Assembly: GCA_012103395.1 (NCBI GenBank)
Contig: WLWV01000010.1
Location: 1-33,003, forward strand
Direction: 5' to 3'
DNA length: 33,003 nt
From: Gammaproteobacteria bacterium
Lineage (GTDB): Bacteria; Pseudomonadota; Gammaproteobacteria; Arenicellales; Poriferihabitantaceae
The position numbers and the translations under genes were made by a program. The number at the start of each line of letters is the position of its first letter. The first letter of the stretch is position 1. The notes beneath the pieces are model-generated. The model was given only the letters and a program-made list of their open reading frames with translations, was not told where the DNA came from and ran no database searches. Positions 4,348 to 32,550 of the stretch are shown piece by piece.

Positions 4348-5781
4348 TTAGTCCGAAGCTCGTGATTTTCCAAAATAATGGTCAAAGAAAAAAACGGCTC
4401 CGGCAATGACGAGAACTAGGTGTAACGGCCAGGCAGCGATGGCGTATCGCATCAGTCCCGCTTGTAACGACGCTGTTAGGAGAAAATAACTTTGGACCAT
4501 CACGGCGACGAGGAAAAGACTCAAGCCAGCGCTGGGTAAGGGGCGAAACCGAGTTAGGTACTGTTTAAGGCCAAGAAAAATAATAAGGACATTTGCGATT
4601 GCAGCGATGGCCAAAAAGAGTTTGATGCCGATAAAGGTCTTGGGGTTTTGAGGTTCGGGCCGGTATGGAATGATTTCGTCCGGGAGATCGGGTTTCACTA
4701 GTTCAAGCTTCCGATTGTATTCCCTGATCATATTTTCTGACTGTAGCTCGGCCAACGCCCATAACCCATAAAAGTTAATCATCACGTCTTCCAGATACCC
4801 CGTGGGATCCTGTTTGATAATGGAATAAGCTAGCACGTTCAGCGCCTGTCCCTGACCGGATTCTGGGATATTGGATTTCTGCAATACCTCGGGCATTTTT
4901 CTGAATCGTAAATAGTCGTAGATGTTTAGAGAAAAGACAAATTTCTCGTTGATGCTGTGCATGTGTTGAGTTCTCGCCTTTCTTGATTGTTCCGTTAAGG
5001 CTAACCAGTGTTTTCCGGCGGTTGGGTAGGGGGTTTTCTGTGCATCAAACTCGGAAAATACAAGTTTTCCAGTAAGTTGATTCCCCATGAATGAACTCGG
5101 AATCCAACTTTGATGAACGCTGAAACGATACAGTGTACCCGCGGATAAGACGAGAGTAATTCCCAAGAAGATCAGCGATGTGCGCTTGAAAAAGGCATTT
5201 TTTGACAAAAGAAATTGCACCATCAGAATCACGGGTATGCAAACCAATGCCCAGGACACTGGCTTAATCAGAATGAGCCAAGCGACGAGGCAACCGATGA
5301 GGAAAGGACGGGCTTTATTGCTGGTTTCATCGGGTTTTAGTATCAGCCCGGTAAGTAGCATTAATGAGCTGAAAAAAAGAGATTCGGTGATGAGCGAAAA
5401 GCAATACTGGACAACGGCGGGGTTTGCACCTGTTCCTACTAACAGGGCTACCCCTGATACAAAGGAGGAGGTGAATCGCTTCAGACTGATTGACAAATAG
5501 AGTAAAGTCGAAAAAAACAATGCGAGTTGCAACAAAACAACCAGTGACCAATCCAGTTGGAAAACTTGAGTAAGTTGAAGGAAAAAAGGATATCCCGCTC
5601 CCCGGTACGGGTCGAACCGTAGGTAGCTTGTGGTGTCGGGAACCCGAAGAGGGTAATCAGAGGGGAAAAACACCCATAAGATGAGTAGCGCAATTGCTAC
5701 AAGGCCAAGTACATAGTTGCTAATTGTATTATTAGAAAATGCTTGGTCAACATTTCGTGGATGATGAATAAAGGGAGTCAT
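4348..5781 (-). CDS. Multi-pass membrane protein, GT-C/ArnT-PMT-like glycosyltransferase
   Basis: 477-aa ORF with about 10 hydrophobic segments; early VPDTTSYLRFDPYRGAGYPFFL is typical of GT-C first-loop acidic motifs. Confidence 0.7.
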   Translation of the reverse strand: MTPFIHHPRNVDQAFSNNTISNYVLGLVAIALLILWVFFPSDYPLRVPDTTSYLRFDPYRGAGYPFFLQLTQVFQLDWSLVVLLQLALFFSTLLYLSISLKRFTSSFVSGVALLVGTGANPAVVQYCFSLITESLFFSSLMLLTGLILKPDETSNKARPFLIGCLVAWLILIKPVSWALVCIPVILMVQFLLSKNAFFKRTSLIFLGITLVLSAGTLYRFSVHQSWIPSSFMGNQLTGKLVFSEFDAQKTPYPTAGKHWLALTEQSRKARTQHMHSINEKFVFSLNIYDYLRFRKMPEVLQKSNIPESGQGQALNVLAYSIIKQDPTGYLEDVMINFYGLWALAELQSENMIREYNRKLELVKPDLPDEIIPYRPEPQNPKTFIGIKLFLAIAAIANVLIIFLGLKQYLTRFRPLPSAGLSLFLVAVMVQSYFLLTASLQAGLMRYAIAAWPLHLVLVIAGAVFFFDHYFGKSRASD

Positions 5782-5913
5782 GAAATCACTCCCAGAAGAG
5801 GAAAGAAAAGAAACTGGGGAAGCATTATCAGGCTGAAATTTATTTGTGGCATATGATGGGGTATTTTATACTCGTGTTTCCCTTGCCTGTACATTGGTCT
5901 GCGTAAATATATC

Positions 5914-6500
5914 ATGAAGCTTTCAGCCATTATTCCTTGCTATAATAAAGCCGCGACTATAGATATGTTGTCAAATAGGGTTCACGCCTCACCTTACCAT
6001 GAAAGGAGGTTGATGGTGTTGTTGATGGCTCCACGGACGACATTCGTAAAAAACGCTCTAACGATATCGCTGAATTGGCAGATCACTTGGTTTTTTCCAT
6101 AAGTATAATCAAGATAAGCAGAACCAAGGTAAAGGAGCGACCTTACAAATCGGTATCGTACATAATATTGGAGATGCCGTTTCCCCCTCTGATGCAGATC
6201 TGGAGTACGATCTGAATGAAAATCCTGTTTAAATGAAATCGATCCTGAATAGTAAGGCAGATGTGACCCACGGTTCGCGATTTATTGGCTCTGGACCCCA
6301 TTGCGTGTTTGACTTTTGGGGTTGCTATTGAACATGGTCGGCGATTCGCATCTGACGAACATGGAAACATGTTATAAGGTTACGCGAAAAGAGATCACGG
6401 CAAAATTCGCAAAATTAAGGCCGAGTGTATGAGGCTGAGATTAGCTATGATGGAAGGATGGAGTGAGTGTGATTTGGATTGCAATTTGGGGAAGCGAGTT
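5914..6500 (+). pseudogene. Decayed GT2 (dolichyl-phosphate mannose synthase-like) gene with frameshifts and in-frame stops
   Basis: Frame fragments MKLSAIIPCYNKAATIDML..., NQGKGATLQIGI...DADLEYDLNENPV*MKSILNSKADVTHGSRFIGSG, AEISYDGRME, collinear with the intact GT2 at 10091-10828 (DADLEYDPEDYIPMLEPLLSNKADVIYGSRYM). 3' boundary approximate. Confidence 0.85.
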
Positions 6501-6597
6501 TCTATCTGAAACGGCTTTTTATGTCTACTTTGTGGACTTCAAAGCCATTGGCTAATAATGATCGTCTGTTACCAAACTTGGAAGGGGATGTTGTTTC

Positions 6598-8562
6598 GTG
6601 AATAATCAAACGGTTAATGTGGTTCTGTTCTCTGGAGGGAGAGGGTCATCGGTACTCACCAAGCAACTACTACACCATAGCAGTGTAAATCTAAGTCTAA
6701 TTATCAATGGCTATGATGACGGCCTGTCTACTGGCGAGGTACGGCGGTTTTTAGGAGATTGTCTTGGACCTTCTGATTTTCGTAAAAATGCCAGCCGTGT
6801 CGCGATCGAAAAACGCAGCTGTGAACAGGGGCTGATCGAGCTGCTGGATTTACGTTTGCCTGTGACGGTGAATGATGAACTGGTTGCTGCGATATTAGGA
6901 TTGTTAACTGCAAAGCCCGTTGAAAACGCCACTGTTTTTTTTGATTCCTTTTCACGACTACACGATTCATTGCGAAATGAATCAAAAAACCTCTTGGTAG
7001 AACGCATGCAGGCATTTTGTGATGAACTGGAAAACCAGCAAGAGGGTTTCGATTTTTCCGACTGTAGTATCGGCAACCTAGTTTTTGCCGGTAGCTTTTT
7101 GGTGAGCCAGCGAAATTTTAATCAGGGTGTCGATGATTATGATCGTTTACTTGGGTTAGAAGCGGGTTTGATTCTGAATGTCACGAAAGGGGAAAATGCG
7201 TTTTTAGTCGCGACCAATGAAAACGGTGAGTATCTGGAAAGTGAGGCGGACATTGTTGACGCGGGGAAACGGAATCATATCAAAGATATTTTTTTACTGG
7301 ATGCACCGATCCAGAAAGAAAGTCTGGAAGCGTTACCGGTCAATCAGCTTAACAAATTGCTTAAACAGCGCGAAGCAGATATTCATCTTAACGAACAGGC
7401 TCAGGATGCGATATCGAGAGCGGATCTGATTATCTATGCGCCAGGGACGCAACACTCTAGCCTCTTTCCATCTTATTTGACGCCAGGGCTTGGGCATGAC
7501 ATTGCGAAAAACACTCAAGCATTGAAGTTATTGGTAACGAACATCGAGGAGGACGCAGAGATTCCTGATTTCAATGCTGTTGAAATTATTAATAAGGCGG
7601 TTTACTACCTGCGCGAAAAGAACGCCAGAAGCTATCCGGTTTCATCATTACTTACTCACTACCTGGTTAACTTGCCGGATACCAAAACCAGAGATGATGA
7701 GAAAAACTATATCCCTTTGGGGAATATGGAGCAGATTGAGGACCCCCGTCTGATAAGAATAGGTAACTATGAAGATCAAGAAACCGGGAATCATGATCCT
7801 GAGAAAGTATTGTCCCCATTCGTCAATGAAATTCTAGCAAAGAAAGCTGCGTTGTCGGTCGCTGTTTTATTAACTGAAAATAGCTCTGTTAACAAAACAG
7901 TGCAGACGGTTTTGGAGATGGCTCGCTCCAAGCTGCAATTCCCCTACGACGTGACGATATATTACCAAGGTGTGGAAATCGATTATTTCCAAGAAGTTGA
8001 CTTGCCATTCAAGACTTCCCATGTGGAGAATAAAGGCAATGAATTGATGTTAAGGGCAGTGCTTGAGAATAGCCACGATTACGTGTGCTTGATGGAGTGT
8101 TCGGGGATGTATCATGGGTACGATGTGATTTCTCTGATTTCTAACCTGAATCAACCTAATGTTGATGCTGTTTGGGGAAGTCGTCGCTTATCAGCGTCAG
8201 ATATGAAAGCGTCCTATAAATTTCGCTACCGCCATCGCGTGTCACTCGGTGCTGTAAGCTATATTGGAAGCTACATGCTTAGTTTGAGCTATTTGTCGCT
8301 CTATGGACGGTATGTCTCAGACACCCTGTCTGGACTACGTGTTGTTAAAAGTCACTTTCTTCGAAAAAACCAATCCAATTTTGAACGGGATAATTTCAAC
8401 CAGTATCTGCTAAGTGATCTACTTGATAGCAAAGGCAGGGTTTTCGAGGTGCCAGTTGACTTCCTCCCTATGTCTCCGAACAAGGTTAGGCGTACCAGTA
8501 TTTTACAGGGCCTGAATGCTTTTTGGGTGATTATGACCCAACGCATGAAAAGCCTACTTTGA
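6598..8562 (+). CDS. Fusion protein: N-terminal YvcK/CofD-like domain (about aa 1-395) plus C-terminal GT2-like domain (about aa 405-654)
   Basis: VVLFSGGRGSSVLTKQLL, DDGLSTGEVRRFLGDCLGPSDFRKN, GNLVFAGSFL, ADLIIYAPGTQHSSLFPSYLTPGLGHDIAKN match the YvcK/CofD layout; C-term DAVWGSRRL...SDTLSGLRVVKSHFLRK...GRVFEVPVDFLPM matches DPM1-type GT2. GTG start. Confidence 0.8.
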   Translation: MNNQTVNVVLFSGGRGSSVLTKQLLHHSSVNLSLIINGYDDGLSTGEVRRFLGDCLGPSDFRKNASRVAIEKRSCEQGLIELLDLRLPVTVNDELVAAILGLLTAKPVENATVFFDSFSRLHDSLRNESKNLLVERMQAFCDELENQQEGFDFSDCSIGNLVFAGSFLVSQRNFNQGVDDYDRLLGLEAGLILNVTKGENAFLVATNENGEYLESEADIVDAGKRNHIKDIFLLDAPIQKESLEALPVNQLNKLLKQREADIHLNEQAQDAISRADLIIYAPGTQHSSLFPSYLTPGLGHDIAKNTQALKLLVTNIEEDAEIPDFNAVEIINKAVYYLREKNARSYPVSSLLTHYLVNLPDTKTRDDEKNYIPLGNMEQIEDPRLIRIGNYEDQETGNHDPEKVLSPFVNEILAKKAALSVAVLLTENSSVNKTVQTVLEMARSKLQFPYDVTIYYQGVEIDYFQEVDLPFKTSHVENKGNELMLRAVLENSHDYVCLMECSGMYHGYDVISLISNLNQPNVDAVWGSRRLSASDMKASYKFRYRHRVSLGAVSYIGSYMLSLSYLSLYGRYVSDTLSGLRVVKSHFLRKNQSNFERDNFNQYLLSDLLDSKGRVFEVPVDFLPMSPNKVRRTSILQGLNAFWVIMTQRMKSLL

Positions 8563-8594
8563 CTGCCGCCAAAATTTAAGCGTAAACAGGACTA

Positions 8595-9251
8595 ATGGCC
8601 GATCATCTGGGGGGTATCAGCGGAGTGGTGTTCGACATGGATGGAGTGCTTGTCGATACATCTCCTTGCCATGAGCAGGCCTATAATCGGCTTATGACGA
8701 AACTGAAACTTCCCGCTGTGGAGTATGAACAGTTGGCTGGGCGCAGCACTAAAGACGTTGTTGATCAGCTTTGTGGCCACTTGTCTTCGCAAGCACGCCA
8801 ACAGTGTGTGAGTTATAAACAAACCGAAGCTCTGAAGCTGTTACGAACTGCGGATATTGTATTCGCCGATACCGTGTGTTCCATCGAAAAATTGCATAGA
8901 GCTGGATTCAAGCTGGCATTGGCAACTAGCGCCTCAAAAGCCAGCGCCGGTCTGGTTCTTGATCGGCTTGGCGTGAGCCATTTGTTTGAGGCCGTGATAA
9001 CCGCAGATCACGTCAAGAAAGCGAAGCCGGATCCAGAGATCTTTTGCCGAGCGATAAAAGCCTTGGGTCTAGCGCCATCGGCATCCCTAATTATTGAGGA
9101 CAGTGTCGCAGGTGTTAGAAGTGGTCTGGCCGCTGGTGCAAGGGTGGTCAATGTGCGCAATCGAATCAGTCACATTGAACATCCTAGTTTTTCTGGATTT
9201 TATGGTGATCTCACGGAAGTAACAGGATTACTAATGGGTCGAACTTCATGA
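8595..9251 (+). CDS. HAD superfamily subfamily IA hydrolase / beta-phosphoglucomutase-like protein
   Basis: FDMDGVLVDT (motif I), LATSAS (II), KKAKPDPEIF (III), IIEDSVAGVRSG (IV). Confidence 0.9.
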   Translation: MADHLGGISGVVFDMDGVLVDTSPCHEQAYNRLMTKLKLPAVEYEQLAGRSTKDVVDQLCGHLSSQARQQCVSYKQTEALKLLRTADIVFADTVCSIEKLHRAGFKLALATSASKASAGLVLDRLGVSHLFEAVITADHVKKAKPDPEIFCRAIKALGLAPSASLIIEDSVAGVRSGLAAGARVVNVRNRISHIEHPSFSGFYGDLTEVTGLLMGRTS

Positions 9252-10063
9252 ATGTAATGATTATACCCGCCGCGGGCAGAGGCACGCGATTGGACTATTC
9301 GGGTCCTAAACTAATGTTTCCACTGGGTGGTAAGCCACTGATTAGTTATTTATTGGTACGATATCAACCGTATGTTGATCACTTTGTGATTGTGATCAAT
9401 CCCAAAGACGAACAGGTGGTAGAGAATTACCTAATATCGACTGGATACAGTTATGAGTTTGCCTATCAAGCAGAAGCGACTGGAATGCTGGATGCGATTC
9501 TCGCTCCCCTTCCACAACTAAAAAATAGGCTCGGTGATGCAAAGCCGGACCAGTTGTGGATAAGTTGGTGCGATCAAATTGGTATTACGCATCAAACTGC
9601 TTTGGCTATGCACCAGTTGTTTGATGACACTGACGAGCCTTGTCTGATTTTCCCCACCATCGAAAAACCACAACCTTATATCCACATGCAACGGGATAAG
9701 TGGGGTGAGATTATTCATGTGATGCAACGAAGAGAAGGTGACGACATGCCCGAGATCGGAGAGAACGACTGTGGGCTATTCGGATTGAGTGCTACCACCT
9801 ATTTTGACCTGCTGCCTCAATTTTCTGATTGGCTCGATACAGTATCGTCAGTGGACAATTCAAATACCGAATCGGGGGTTGGAGCGACTACTCACGAGCG
9901 CAATTTTTTGCCTTTTATTTCATGGATGCGGGGTAAAGGAACGGTATCAACTTATCGCGCTGTGGATAGTACGGAGTCCATTGGTGTCAATACCGTTGAA
10001 GATGCTGAGCAGTTGATCTCGGCTAGTGGTGGCGTATCACAAACAGCGACAAGTAATCGATGA
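9248..10063 (+). CDS. Nucleotidyltransferase (GlmU/MobA-like NTP_transferase fold)
   Basis: N-terminal MIIPAAGRGTRLDYSGPKLMFPLGGKPLI, internal YQAEATGMLDAI and NTVEDAE; ATGA overlap with the preceding gene. Confidence 0.88.
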   Translation: MNVMIIPAAGRGTRLDYSGPKLMFPLGGKPLISYLLVRYQPYVDHFVIVINPKDEQVVENYLISTGYSYEFAYQAEATGMLDAILAPLPQLKNRLGDAKPDQLWISWCDQIGITHQTALAMHQLFDDTDEPCLIFPTIEKPQPYIHMQRDKWGEIIHVMQRREGDDMPEIGENDCGLFGLSATTYFDLLPQFSDWLDTVSSVDNSNTESGVGATTHERNFLPFISWMRGKGTVSTYRAVDSTESIGVNTVEDAEQLISASGGVSQTATSNR

Positions 10064-10090: not shown

Positions 10091-10828
10091 ATGCATAATA
10101 AAACACAAACACTGTCCATTGTAATCCCAGCTTACAATGAAGCGAATTTCATTGGCGTCTTGTTGGAAAAAATAGCGGAAGTCAATCTGGCTTCTTTGGG
10201 ATTGGAAAAAGAAATTATTGTAATCAACGATTGCTCTGCGGACCAAACAGCAGAGATTGTAAGGAGGTTTGATAATGTAATTCTGCTGGAGCATACCGTA
10301 AACAGCGGCAAAGGCATGGCAGTAAGAACTGGGTTGGACAAAGCAACAGGAGATTTTCTAATTATTCAGGATGCTGATTTGGAGTATGACCCTGAAGACT
10401 ATATCCCCATGCTGGAACCGCTCCTGAGCAACAAAGCGGACGTAATTTACGGCAGCAGATACATGAAACATCCAGAGGCTGGAGTGATAAAAAACCTACT
10501 AACGGGAAAGCACCCTGAGCAGTCTTGGGTTGCGTATCTTGGGGGTCAGAGTTTGAGTTTTGTGTCATTACTTTTCACTGGTCGGTTTTTGTCGGACACA
10601 GTAACGGCTTACAAACTCTTTAAATCGCCCATCATTAAAAACCTAGCACTTGAAACCACGGGCTTTGAACTTGATCACGAAATATCCGCAAAAGTTCTTA
10701 GCAGTGGTCACCGTATAATGGAAGTTCCCATTTCCTATTTGCCTCGTACCGTTGCGGAAGGGAAGAAAATTGGCCTGAAAGACTGGTTTTGTGCAATTAG
10801 GACATTCTTCAGATATCGAAATGGTTAG
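10091..10828 (+). CDS. GT2 family glycosyltransferase, dolichyl/polyprenyl-phosphate sugar synthase-like
   Basis: LSIVIPAYNEANFIGVLL, IIVINDCSADQT, NSGKGMAVRTGLDKATGDFLIIQDADLEYDPED, YGSRYM. Confidence 0.92.
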   Translation: MHNKTQTLSIVIPAYNEANFIGVLLEKIAEVNLASLGLEKEIIVINDCSADQTAEIVRRFDNVILLEHTVNSGKGMAVRTGLDKATGDFLIIQDADLEYDPEDYIPMLEPLLSNKADVIYGSRYMKHPEAGVIKNLLTGKHPEQSWVAYLGGQSLSFVSLLFTGRFLSDTVTAYKLFKSPIIKNLALETTGFELDHEISAKVLSSGHRIMEVPISYLPRTVAEGKKIGLKDWFCAIRTFFRYRNG

Positions 10829-22656: not shown

Positions 22657-24609
22657 ATGTTATTCGCACTGTTATATGCCTTTTGTCTAATTATTCCCGG
22701 TTGGACAATACTGTCACTGTTTCGAATCACGGGCATCGCTAACGGGTATTTATACCCAATTGCTTCATTAGGCTTTTTTATTGGTTTGAGTGTTCTTTTC
22801 TCTTTGGCTGATTTGCCTGTTTCCTGGTTTTCCACGAGCTATTTTCTATTTGTGTTCTGTCTGCTAGCGGTCGTGTTAGGCCGTTTGTTTCCAGTACTTG
22901 GCCGAGAGGTGGATTGGTCGCAGATAACGACGGGCATAGAGTGGAAATTCATCCTACCCTCAGTAGTATTGGCCGTATCGTTGTTTTATGCGATTACTGT
23001 TGGCCCCTATATGGAAATCCCCGGTGATCCGTTATGGCATATGCTGAAAATTGGGAATGCAGTAGAGCATTGGAGTACAAGTGAGATTTGGGCGTTCAAA
23101 ATAAAAAAAGAGGTGCTAACTACCCCGAACTATCACTGGTACCATTTCTGTGGATGGCTAATTAGTTTAACTAAAACCAATTTTCAGCAGGCTATGAACA
23201 GTATTTGGGTTGTGAACTTTGCCACGTTTACTACTGCGTTTTACTGGTTTGCCATGCGGTTGTTCCGGGACACTAAACTCAGTGACTTGCAACGGACTTG
23301 GGCGGCGATATTAGCCGTGGTATTTTTGGTTTTGCATTTTGGTATTGGGCCTTTCAGTTATGTTCGTTATTATGTTTTTGCACCATCCTTTATGGCACTA
23401 ATTGGGTATTGGTCGGTACTCATTGTGATCTGGGATTTTCTTTCAGGGCGAACCGGTATTTTGAAAACGGTTTTGCTTGGTGGCTTTCTGTCGTTTGCAA
23501 CGATGTTGCTGCACCATCAAGAAGTACTATTCATTGGGGTAATGGCCGTTCTCCTGACGGGCGCAATGTTTTGGCGTTGGTTGTTTTCCGGAACTGGTTA
23601 TCCTTGGCAAGACTTGGGGCCAAGACTGAGAAATAGTCGGTCGGCACAAATCATCTGTGCTTCGTTTCTTCTCGTGATCGTGGGATATCTGATACTTCAT
23701 GGGTATTTGTATATTTCACGAGTTCGCAACTACGCTTTGGAAGGTGGCTGGCTGATGCCGGTTAGCCAAACAGCTCCAATTCTAAAACACCTTTTTATCC
23801 TTAAGCCAAGTGGGCAGTTCTACCAAGTGTTGACAGTTTGGGGTGTATGGGGATATCTGGCTTACTTTTTGCATGCGCGAAAGGTCGCATTTCCTTTGGT
23901 GGTTGCTGCGGGAATATGGTCACCGTTATGGACCGTGTTTAATCCAGTGTTCATTGATTTTTTTCTGCGGATGACTTACCCCGAAGTGGTGTGGCGATTA
24001 GTTTACATCGTGCCCATGGAACTGGCGTTAGCATTGCTTGTGGTTACTTGGTGGGCTGATTTTTCAATGAAAAAAATCCAATCCTCCAAGCTTGGAGTGA
24101 TTATCTCGGGATTGTTTATCATTCTCTCCTTTACCTTGTTGTGGCCATTCAATACCAGTTTCGTCAATAACCAATACGACAAATTTGGAATGTTGAAATC
24201 AGTGAATGAAGATATGGATCAGCGATTGTTGAATGATCTAATTACTCACCTAGAACGGATTTCCAAAACTCAAGTATTAACTGATCAGATAACCGGCTAT
24301 GTCGTCAATGCATTTACCAAGCATCAATACAATGGACACAAGTTCTATGGACACGGTGCGTTAAACACCAATCGTACGAATTACAAACTTGAAGATTTTG
24401 AATCTTATGCTGACGGATTATTGGTGGTGAATCAGCGACGAGGATCGGTGAGTAAAACAGGTCGTGTTTCCGGCCATTGGCCCACTAACGTTCGGTTGTA
24501 TTCAGATTGGTATAGCCAAGATTTTCTGGTGTTTATAAAAAATAACTCAGACTACTTTGAGCTAGTTGAAACCTTGTCGGACATATCGATTTATCGTATC
24601 CACCTTTGA
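22657..24609 (+). CDS. Large multi-pass membrane protein of unknown function, possibly GT-C-like
   Basis: 650-aa ORF with more than 10 hydrophobic segments, abutting the upstream gene. Confidence 0.65.
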   Translation: MLFALLYAFCLIIPGWTILSLFRITGIANGYLYPIASLGFFIGLSVLFSLADLPVSWFSTSYFLFVFCLLAVVLGRLFPVLGREVDWSQITTGIEWKFILPSVVLAVSLFYAITVGPYMEIPGDPLWHMLKIGNAVEHWSTSEIWAFKIKKEVLTTPNYHWYHFCGWLISLTKTNFQQAMNSIWVVNFATFTTAFYWFAMRLFRDTKLSDLQRTWAAILAVVFLVLHFGIGPFSYVRYYVFAPSFMALIGYWSVLIVIWDFLSGRTGILKTVLLGGFLSFATMLLHHQEVLFIGVMAVLLTGAMFWRWLFSGTGYPWQDLGPRLRNSRSAQIICASFLLVIVGYLILHGYLYISRVRNYALEGGWLMPVSQTAPILKHLFILKPSGQFYQVLTVWGVWGYLAYFLHARKVAFPLVVAAGIWSPLWTVFNPVFIDFFLRMTYPEVVWRLVYIVPMELALALLVVTWWADFSMKKIQSSKLGVIISGLFIILSFTLLWPFNTSFVNNQYDKFGMLKSVNEDMDQRLLNDLITHLERISKTQVLTDQITGYVVNAFTKHQYNGHKFYGHGALNTNRTNYKLEDFESYADGLLVVNQRRGSVSKTGRVSGHWPTNVRLYSDWYSQDFLVFIKNNSDYFELVETLSDISIYRIHL

Positions 24610-31472: not shown

Positions 31473-31491
31473 CTAATTGCTTCCTCTCAAA

Positions 31492-32550
31492 ATGATTGAA
31501 TTTGAACAGCTGTTGAATGCCCAAAAAATAGGGCAGATACCCGACCCCTATTTGATTGCGGAAGCTGGAGTGAATCATGAAGGTTCAATGGATTTGGCAA
31601 AACAACTTATCGATGAAGCACAAGAAGGTGGCGCTAATGCCATTAAGTTTCAATCCTACAAAGCACATCTAATTGCTTCCAAAAATAGCCCCGCCTATTG
31701 GGATACTTCTAAAGAAAAGGCGAAAAATCAATATGAACTCTTTAAGAGATATGATGCTTTTTGGAAACCAGAATATGAGGAACTGAAACGACATTGTGAG
31801 CAAGTAGGTATTGAATTTATGTCTACCCCTTTTGATCTTGAGTCAGCCAACTTTTTGGATGAATTGGTTTCAGTTCACAAAATATCTTCTTCCGATATCA
31901 CGAACCAACCCTTATTAGAAAGTATCGGAAGTAAAAAAAAGCCAATTCTGCTTTCTACAGGAGCAGCAACAATATCCGAAATATCGCGTGCAGCAAGCTT
32001 CCTTGAGAAGTACGGTGCACCGGTATGTTTGATGCATTGTATCTTGAACTATCCAACACCAGACAAAAATGCAAATCTCGGTATGATCGTTGATCTTAAA
32101 AACAGGTTCCCTAATACGCTAATTGGTTACTCTGATCACACACTTCCTGGGGATATGGAAAATTTGCTATTAGCCAGTATGCTTGGCGCAAGCGTCCTTG
32201 AAAAACATTTTAGCCATGATAAAACCCTGCCAGGGAATGACCATTACCATGCAATGGACATGACGGATCTTAAACACTTCAAAGCTAGAGTAAGGCGAGC
32301 TCAAGAAATCATTGGATCTTATGAGAAAACACCGCTTAGCGAAGAAGGAGAATCTAGGAAACAGGCTCGACGAAGCCTAGTTTCAGCTCATCCCATCGCC
32401 ATAGGGGAGACTATTACTAAGGAATCACTAATATCAAAACGACCCGCTCATGGTATTTCACCATTCGAAATAGACAAGATAGCTGGGACTAAGGCGAAGA
32501 TTGCGATAGAGGAAGACACGATAATTAGTTGGGATATGCTGTCAGTCTAG
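31492..32550 (+). CDS. neuB: N-acetylneuraminate synthase (NeuB) family nonulosonic acid synthase with C-terminal SAF domain
   Basis: LIAEAGVNHEGSMDLAKQLIDEAQEGGANAIKFQSYK, EFMSTPFDLESANFL, KISSSDITNQPLLE, LSTGAATISEI, C-term SLVSAHPIAIGETITKESLISKRPAHGISP. ORF opens at 31477. Confidence 0.93.
   Translation: MIEFEQLLNAQKIGQIPDPYLIAEAGVNHEGSMDLAKQLIDEAQEGGANAIKFQSYKAHLIASKNSPAYWDTSKEKAKNQYELFKRYDAFWKPEYEELKRHCEQVGIEFMSTPFDLESANFLDELVSVHKISSSDITNQPLLESIGSKKKPILLSTGAATISEISRAASFLEKYGAPVCLMHCILNYPTPDKNANLGMIVDLKNRFPNTLIGYSDHTLPGDMENLLLASMLGASVLEKHFSHDKTLPGNDHYHAMDMTDLKHFKARVRRAQEIIGSYEKTPLSEEGESRKQARRSLVSAHPIAIGETITKESLISKRPAHGISPFEIDKIAGTKAKIAIEEDTIISWDMLSV

Follow-up and report, generated by a model that had tools for sequence, protein, structure and literature searches.

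The stretch of DNA analysed here (the window, i.e. the whole 33,003 nucleotides at positions 1 to 33,003 of contig WLWV01000010.1) lies amid a long series of glycosyltransferase genes, in a genome assembled from a metagenome and assigned to the Gammaproteobacteria, and it carries a conserved cassette of at least four genes. They encode a nucleotidyltransferase (NTP), a protein of the YvcK/CofD fold, a HAD hydrolase and a family 2 glycosyltransferase (GT2) of the DPM/ArnC type. All four lie on the + strand. The first open reading frame (ORF1, 6598..8562, GTG start codon, 654 amino acids (aa)) joins, from its Pfam matches and structural model, a YvcK/CofD-like domain (residues ~5–381) to a degenerate DPM/ArnC-like GT2 domain (~418–654). 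It is followed by a HAD-IA hydrolase of the beta-PGM/YqaB kind (8595..9251, 218 aa), a GlmU-N-like NTP (9248..10063, 271 aa) and, as conserved fourth gene, a separate polyprenyl-phosphate-type GT2 (AglJ/DPM-like, 10091..10828). Short gaps precede the HAD gene and follow the NTP gene, while the end of HAD and the start of NTP share the ATGA at 9248–9251. Pfam scores are 72.7 bits for CofD (PF01933), 109 bits for HAD and 57.9 bits for NTP_transf_3 (MobA-like). An earlier note on this DNA had described ORF1, HAD and NTP as three consecutive genes with the ATGA overlap, which the sequence confirms. It had also taken them for a three-gene module; the three families do form a conserved unit, but this unit comprises at least four genes, the separate GT2 being linked as tightly as the HAD.

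Conserved linkage of the three families was the check named beforehand, and it holds. The CofD-GT2 protein is present in nine genomes among the 145 relatives searched. The NTP profile used alone gives strong matches (348–395 bits, the tight family being taken at >340 bits) in exactly those nine genomes (9 of 141 relatives), always adjoining the CofD gene, i.e. a 9-to-9 correspondence within the order; the next matches score ~71 bits or lower and are of GlmU length. A tight HAD family (>300 bits) occurs in 7 of the 109 genomes of the order. All seven are among the nine, and in each of them HAD adjoins CofD.

A wider scan with the CofD-GT2 profile, keeping one genome per species, yielded 79 loci beyond the window, i.e. 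80 in all. These loci were found via CofD/GT2 motifs only, so that NTP and HAD played no part in their selection. NTP lies within 4 kb of CofD in 77 of the 80, which are all the evaluable ones (77/77): in the three others (L037, L078, L101) the contig stops within ~0.55 kb of the CofD gene. Of the 80 loci, 58 have the HAD and most have the DPM-like GT2. The carriers include Gammaproteobacteria, Deltaproteobacteria, Bacteriovorax, Legionella-like bins, Bradyrhizobium and a Pelagibacteraceae bin, as well as Acidobacteria, Verrucomicrobia, a Bacteroidetes bin, Melainabacteria, Nitrospina, Armatimonadetes and many actinobacteria of the Streptosporangiales type; several are metagenome bins, for which single taxon labels may be wrong. 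On plasmids we found only distant CofD-family proteins, none spanning the GT2 part. Nearly all of the 26 actinobacterial loci have the gene order GT2-CofD-HAD-NTP. Pairwise distances correlate between CofD and NTP (r=0.93) and between CofD and HAD (r=0.97), with 0 of 2000 permutations as high, shared ancestry being uncorrected in this comparison. This correlation and the patchy distribution are consistent with the genes being inherited together. In Bacteriovorax and Nitrospina, NTP, CofD and GT2 are even fused in a single protein of ~930 aa (L062:7197-9995, L081:7218-9995); a separate HAD lies upstream of these triple fusions and a GT2 downstream. Three loci (L025, L028, L029) have the cassette but nothing else of the polysaccharide cluster.

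Some neighbours recur beside the cassette. NAD-dependent epimerases do so in the mixed group. Multi-spanning membrane proteins recur as well; their reading as GT-C proteins comes from topology and motifs, with no family match. In 24 of the 26 actinobacterial loci a protein of ~255 aa with ~3 predicted membrane segments and no Pfam match lies directly upstream (e.g. L082:6184-6966). In the Pelagibacteraceae bin (L086, 5111–9953) NTP and GT2 stand upstream of CofD-GT2 with a radical SAM protein between, and HAD was not found nearby. Locus L023, from the sister genome G001, has an in-frame stop in the NTP gene and a downstream GT2 split in two open reading frames (7470–8910); this cassette may be decaying, or the assembly may contain errors there.

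The N-terminal domain of ORF1 is of the YvcK type, nearer to YvcK/GlmR than to FbiA/CofD. Structure matches obtained by phmmer and hmmsearch are all YvcK. Foldseek ranks YvcK/UPF0052 first, with a TM score to target of up to 0.82 (0.81 for 2hzb/2o2z), CofD and FbiA being at ~0.5–0.58, and profile comparison by hhalign gives an E-value of 7e-11 to YvcK versus 1e-4 to FbiA. On the hhalign and Foldseek results, the CofD-type first domain of the earlier note has to be replaced by a YvcK-type one. The domain nevertheless forms a subfamily of its own: it scores 63.7 bits with TIGR01826 (YvcK/GlmR), below the cut-off of 196, and 91.9 bits with the top NCBIfam model, TIGR04357 (“GAK system CofD-like protein”), below the cut-off of 340. 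Three cassette-bearing actinobacterial genomes encode three CofD-family proteins each; of the additional copies whose sequences were inspected, one resembles YvcK and another FbiA. The cassette protein is thus a third paralogue, since separate YvcK-like and FbiA-like proteins coexist with it.

The host of the window encodes a single CofD-family protein, and its own genome (93% completeness) has no match to CofC (PF01983) or CofE (PF01996). The lack of F420 genes, a point that the earlier note wanted checked, is thus seen in this host, and F420 synthesis is ruled out as the role of the cassette.

Overall identity within the subfamily is only ~25–30%, and invariance clusters in the pocket motifs GGRG, NGYDDGxSTG, GPSDFRKN and PGTxHSSLxPSY (100% or nearly). 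The residues conserved at 100% in the 80 loci are G13-G14-x-G16, N37, Y39-D40, G42, S44-T45, R49, L56 and the adjoining GPSDFRKN up to residue 64, then G283-T284, S287-S288, P291, N315 and D319. The GPSDFRKN signature (residues 57–64, 6766..6789, + strand) is invariant at 8 of its 8 residues. Near-invariance of the pocket in very divergent proteins suggests catalysis rather than passive binding. The codon of Asp40, the first of the YDD pair, is at 6715..6717 (+ strand); in alignments this pair falls on the Asp pair at the nucleotide/metal site of YvcK and, by profile comparison, on that of FbiA, where D45 and D57 are the metal ligands (PMC7253369).

The HAD belongs near the beta-PGM/YqaB branch and keeps the four catalytic motifs (DxD, S/T, K and ED: D14, D16, the S114 region, K144, E168 and D169). 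In beta-PGM R49 is the distal-phosphate Arg (PMC9171722), which would be expected of a mutase. The position opposite to it by hand alignment, 52, is Thr in 98% of the HADs, and His26 and Lys75 are invariant. For one member from the actinobacteria the best score is with phosphoglycolate phosphatase. The HAD may thus be either a mutase or a phosphatase.

The NTP matches the NTP_transf_3, IspD and GlmU models. No family model for CofC matches it, and its best folds are GlmU: the structural model (pLDDT 93) has the GlmU N-terminal fold, with 35 of the 35 best PDB matches being GlmU. The identity of NTP as a CofC is therefore ruled out by both sequence and fold. For the same reason the CofC/CofD-like logic proposed by the earlier note survives as a functional analogy at best, not as homology. 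The catalytic residues P20-K21, Q74, D109, E163 and N248 are kept (K21, Q74, D109 and N248 at 99–100%). By contrast, the sugar-side residues differ from those of GlmU, e.g. with NDCG in place of NTG or SSG in the alignments, which suggests a sugar other than N-acetylglucosamine (GlcNAc). A full cellular GlmU is encoded elsewhere in the host genome; the cassette NTP is thus an extra enzyme, and its being a replacement of the housekeeping GlmU is ruled out. In the separate GT2, D94-A95-D96 is invariant and the DXD motif intact.

The GT2 domain fused to ORF1 falls below Pfam reporting, with a weak match to AglJ (22 bits). In the AlphaFold model of ORF1 (mean pLDDT 87.8) the C-terminal half nevertheless matches ArnC and dolichyl-phosphate mannose synthase (DPMS), enzymes that act on polyprenyl phosphate. 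The CofD-GT2 fusion claimed earlier therefore stands as to fold, but in the lineage of the window the GT2 is degenerate, its donor-side motifs being lost. In the window itself ECS (residues 500–502, 8095..8103, + strand) occupies the place of the expected DXD; across the window's group the motif is replaced by ECS, ESS or DSS, and in the mixed group only its last Asp is kept ([TS]GD). In Bacteriovorax, Nitrospina and Pelagibacteraceae the N-terminal half is recognisable and P-S-D is kept. The C-terminal motifs GSR, SDTLSG and EVP are retained in the fused domain and resemble those of the neighbouring GT2. The simplest reading of these motifs is that catalysis on the donor side was lost step by step, while binding on the acceptor side or to a partner was kept. 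Because the lost motifs are those of the donor side and the kept ones are common with the neighbouring GT2, the fused domain is probably an acceptor-holding or partner-binding one.

How might these proteins work together? We tentatively favour a relay in which the cassette charges a sugar-phosphate, which the YvcK/CofD-fold protein with its putative metal site would pass on to a glycan of the envelope or an exopolysaccharide, linked to a carrier lipid. The HAD would set the phosphate of the precursor, and the GlmU-like NTP would convert X-1-phosphate and a nucleoside triphosphate into a nucleoside diphosphate sugar, NDP-X. The YvcK/CofD-fold protein would bind NDP-X at its Asp/metal site and act on it, most likely in the manner of CofD: an acceptor would attack the phosphate beside X, releasing a nucleoside monophosphate (NMP) and leaving phospho-X on the acceptor. 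The separate DPM-type GT2, with the GT-C membrane protein where present, would then move the group to polyprenyl phosphate and on to the glycan. The unusual activated group supposed by the earlier note, like a phosphodiester, remains an inference. A catalytic role of the CofD-fold domain is favoured because its pocket hardly varies even between very distant relatives. Several observations weigh against this relay. The nearest characterised relatives of the CofD-like domain, YvcK/GlmR, are reported to be UDP-GlcNAc-binding regulators and uridyltransferases (PMC7525490, PMC10128056), not phosphotransferases, and by profile comparison the invariant Asp60 aligns with a conserved Asp of YvcK, not with the second FbiA metal ligand, D57. 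HAD is missing from two of the nine module genomes of the order (G042 and G078) and from many loci of Acidobacteria, and the actinobacterial members are without the fused GT2.

A close rival, though a somewhat unlikely one, is that the YvcK-like domain serves as a sensor of the GlmR type, which would bind the NDP-sugar made by NTP and tune the cassette enzymes, the chemistry being left to NTP, the separate GT2 and the GT-C protein. YvcK/GlmR is the closest family in fold and sequence, and GlmR of B. subtilis gives a precedent, being a UDP-GlcNAc-binding protein that exerts control over its partners (PMC7525490). A GT2 that is fused but degenerate would also suit a non-catalytic partner. But pocket motifs invariant over such wide distances go beyond what would be expected for a regulator, the fusion with NTP seen in one lineage is in keeping with a metabolic relay, and the fused GT2 looks largely intact in Bacteriovorax, Nitrospina and Pelagibacteraceae. 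It is less likely again that the domain is a nucleotidyltransferase itself, working beside the GlmU-like enzyme on the same or a different sugar phosphate. Such an activity would have a parallel in Listeria GlmR, reported as a uridyltransferase whose active site is proposed to include D40, D41 and N198 (PMC10128056), and the cassette protein has the YDD pair with invariant D40. It would however be redundant next to an always-present, intact GlmU-like enzyme, and consumption of NDP-X in the manner of CofD is favoured over a second nucleotidyl transfer for this reason.

A more specific proposal, which we regard as improbable, is that the CofD-fold domain and the carrier-lipid-binding GT2-like domain together form a third kind of phosphoglycosyl transferase, transferring a phospho-sugar from an NDP-sugar to polyprenyl phosphate with release of NMP. 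This reaction is so far known from a polytopic (WecA/MraY) and a monotopic (PglC/WbaP) family, and in formal terms the chemistry of CofD differs from it in the acceptor alone. Finally, GT2, HAD and NTP genes abound in glycan clusters and the window holds many other glycosyltransferases, so that unrelated glycan genes could have come to lie side by side by chance. The 9-to-9 co-occurrence, the 77 of 77 evaluable loci across many phyla, the gene fusion and the loci devoid of the rest of a polysaccharide cluster make this extremely improbable, and co-occurrence within the order together with the conserved neighbourhoods effectively rules it out. Madurose was also considered as the product, the actinobacterial carriers being all from madurose-bearing groups; no support for it was found in papers, and these taxa simply share ancestry.

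Further genes of the window encode an asparagine-synthase-like protein, a Bac_transf sugar-phosphate transferase, an NDP-sugar dehydrogenase, an epimerase, an ABC transporter and NeuB. The NeuB-family gene is at the window end (31477–32550), and the remaining nonulosonic-acid pathway is not visible within the window. A multi-spanning GT-C-like membrane protein is encoded at 4348..5781 (– strand); its link with the cassette is confined to part of this order. Between this gene and ORF1 sits a decayed (frameshifted) DPM-like GT2 gene (5893..6549, + strand), which has an uninterrupted relative of 281 aa in the sister genome G001 (L023:11734-12579). The series of glycosyltransferase genes is bordered on its two sides by genes for large multi-spanning proteins (137–2656, 839 aa; 22657–24609, 650 aa), for which Pfam gives no match or hardly one.

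The folds are all known. The apparently undescribed parts are the gene set, the GPSDFRKN subfamily and the fusion to a decaying GT2: neither the CofD/YvcK-glycosyltransferase-nucleotidyltransferase set nor this third subfamily with its fusion was found described in the searchable literature, subscription papers and preprints not being covered. Known members of the small CofD/YvcK superfamily make F420 or control the supply of cell-wall precursors, and their basic chemistry is still debated; the cassette adds a third, glycan-linked branch. As a compact set found in many phyla, including cultured strains of Microbispora (such as Microbispora rosea), Nonomuraea, Actinomadura and Bradyrhizobium (such as Bradyrhizobium sp. 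CSA207), it offers a direct test of whether a YvcK-fold protein uses the product of its nucleotidyltransferase.

Compared with known systems, the cassette CofD domain shares with YvcK/GlmR the fold and the DDGxSxG, PxD and PGxxxxSxxP motifs, but differs by its own GPSDFRKN, its usually fused GT2 and its place in a glycan cassette. With CofD/FbiA it has in common the superfamily fold, the GDD/YDD Asp pair and a partner nucleotidyltransferase; the distance is however far greater than to YvcK, the partner is GlmU-like and not CofC, and the host has neither CofC nor CofE. The GAK CofD-like model TIGR04357 includes no fused GT2, and the cassette protein is set apart from it by this and by score, the comparison covering the CofD-like protein. 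NTP has the fold and catalytic motifs of the GlmU N-terminal pyrophosphorylase with different sugar-side residues and no acetyltransferase domain, the model ending after the N-domain at 271 aa. As to ArnC, GtrB and DPMS, the separate GT2 keeps their DAD and the fused domain has their fold, whereas the latter carries ECS/ESS for DXD in the window's lineage. For the pair formed by NTP and the CofD-fold protein, “GlmU/GlmR-like” is thus a closer description than CofC/CofD.

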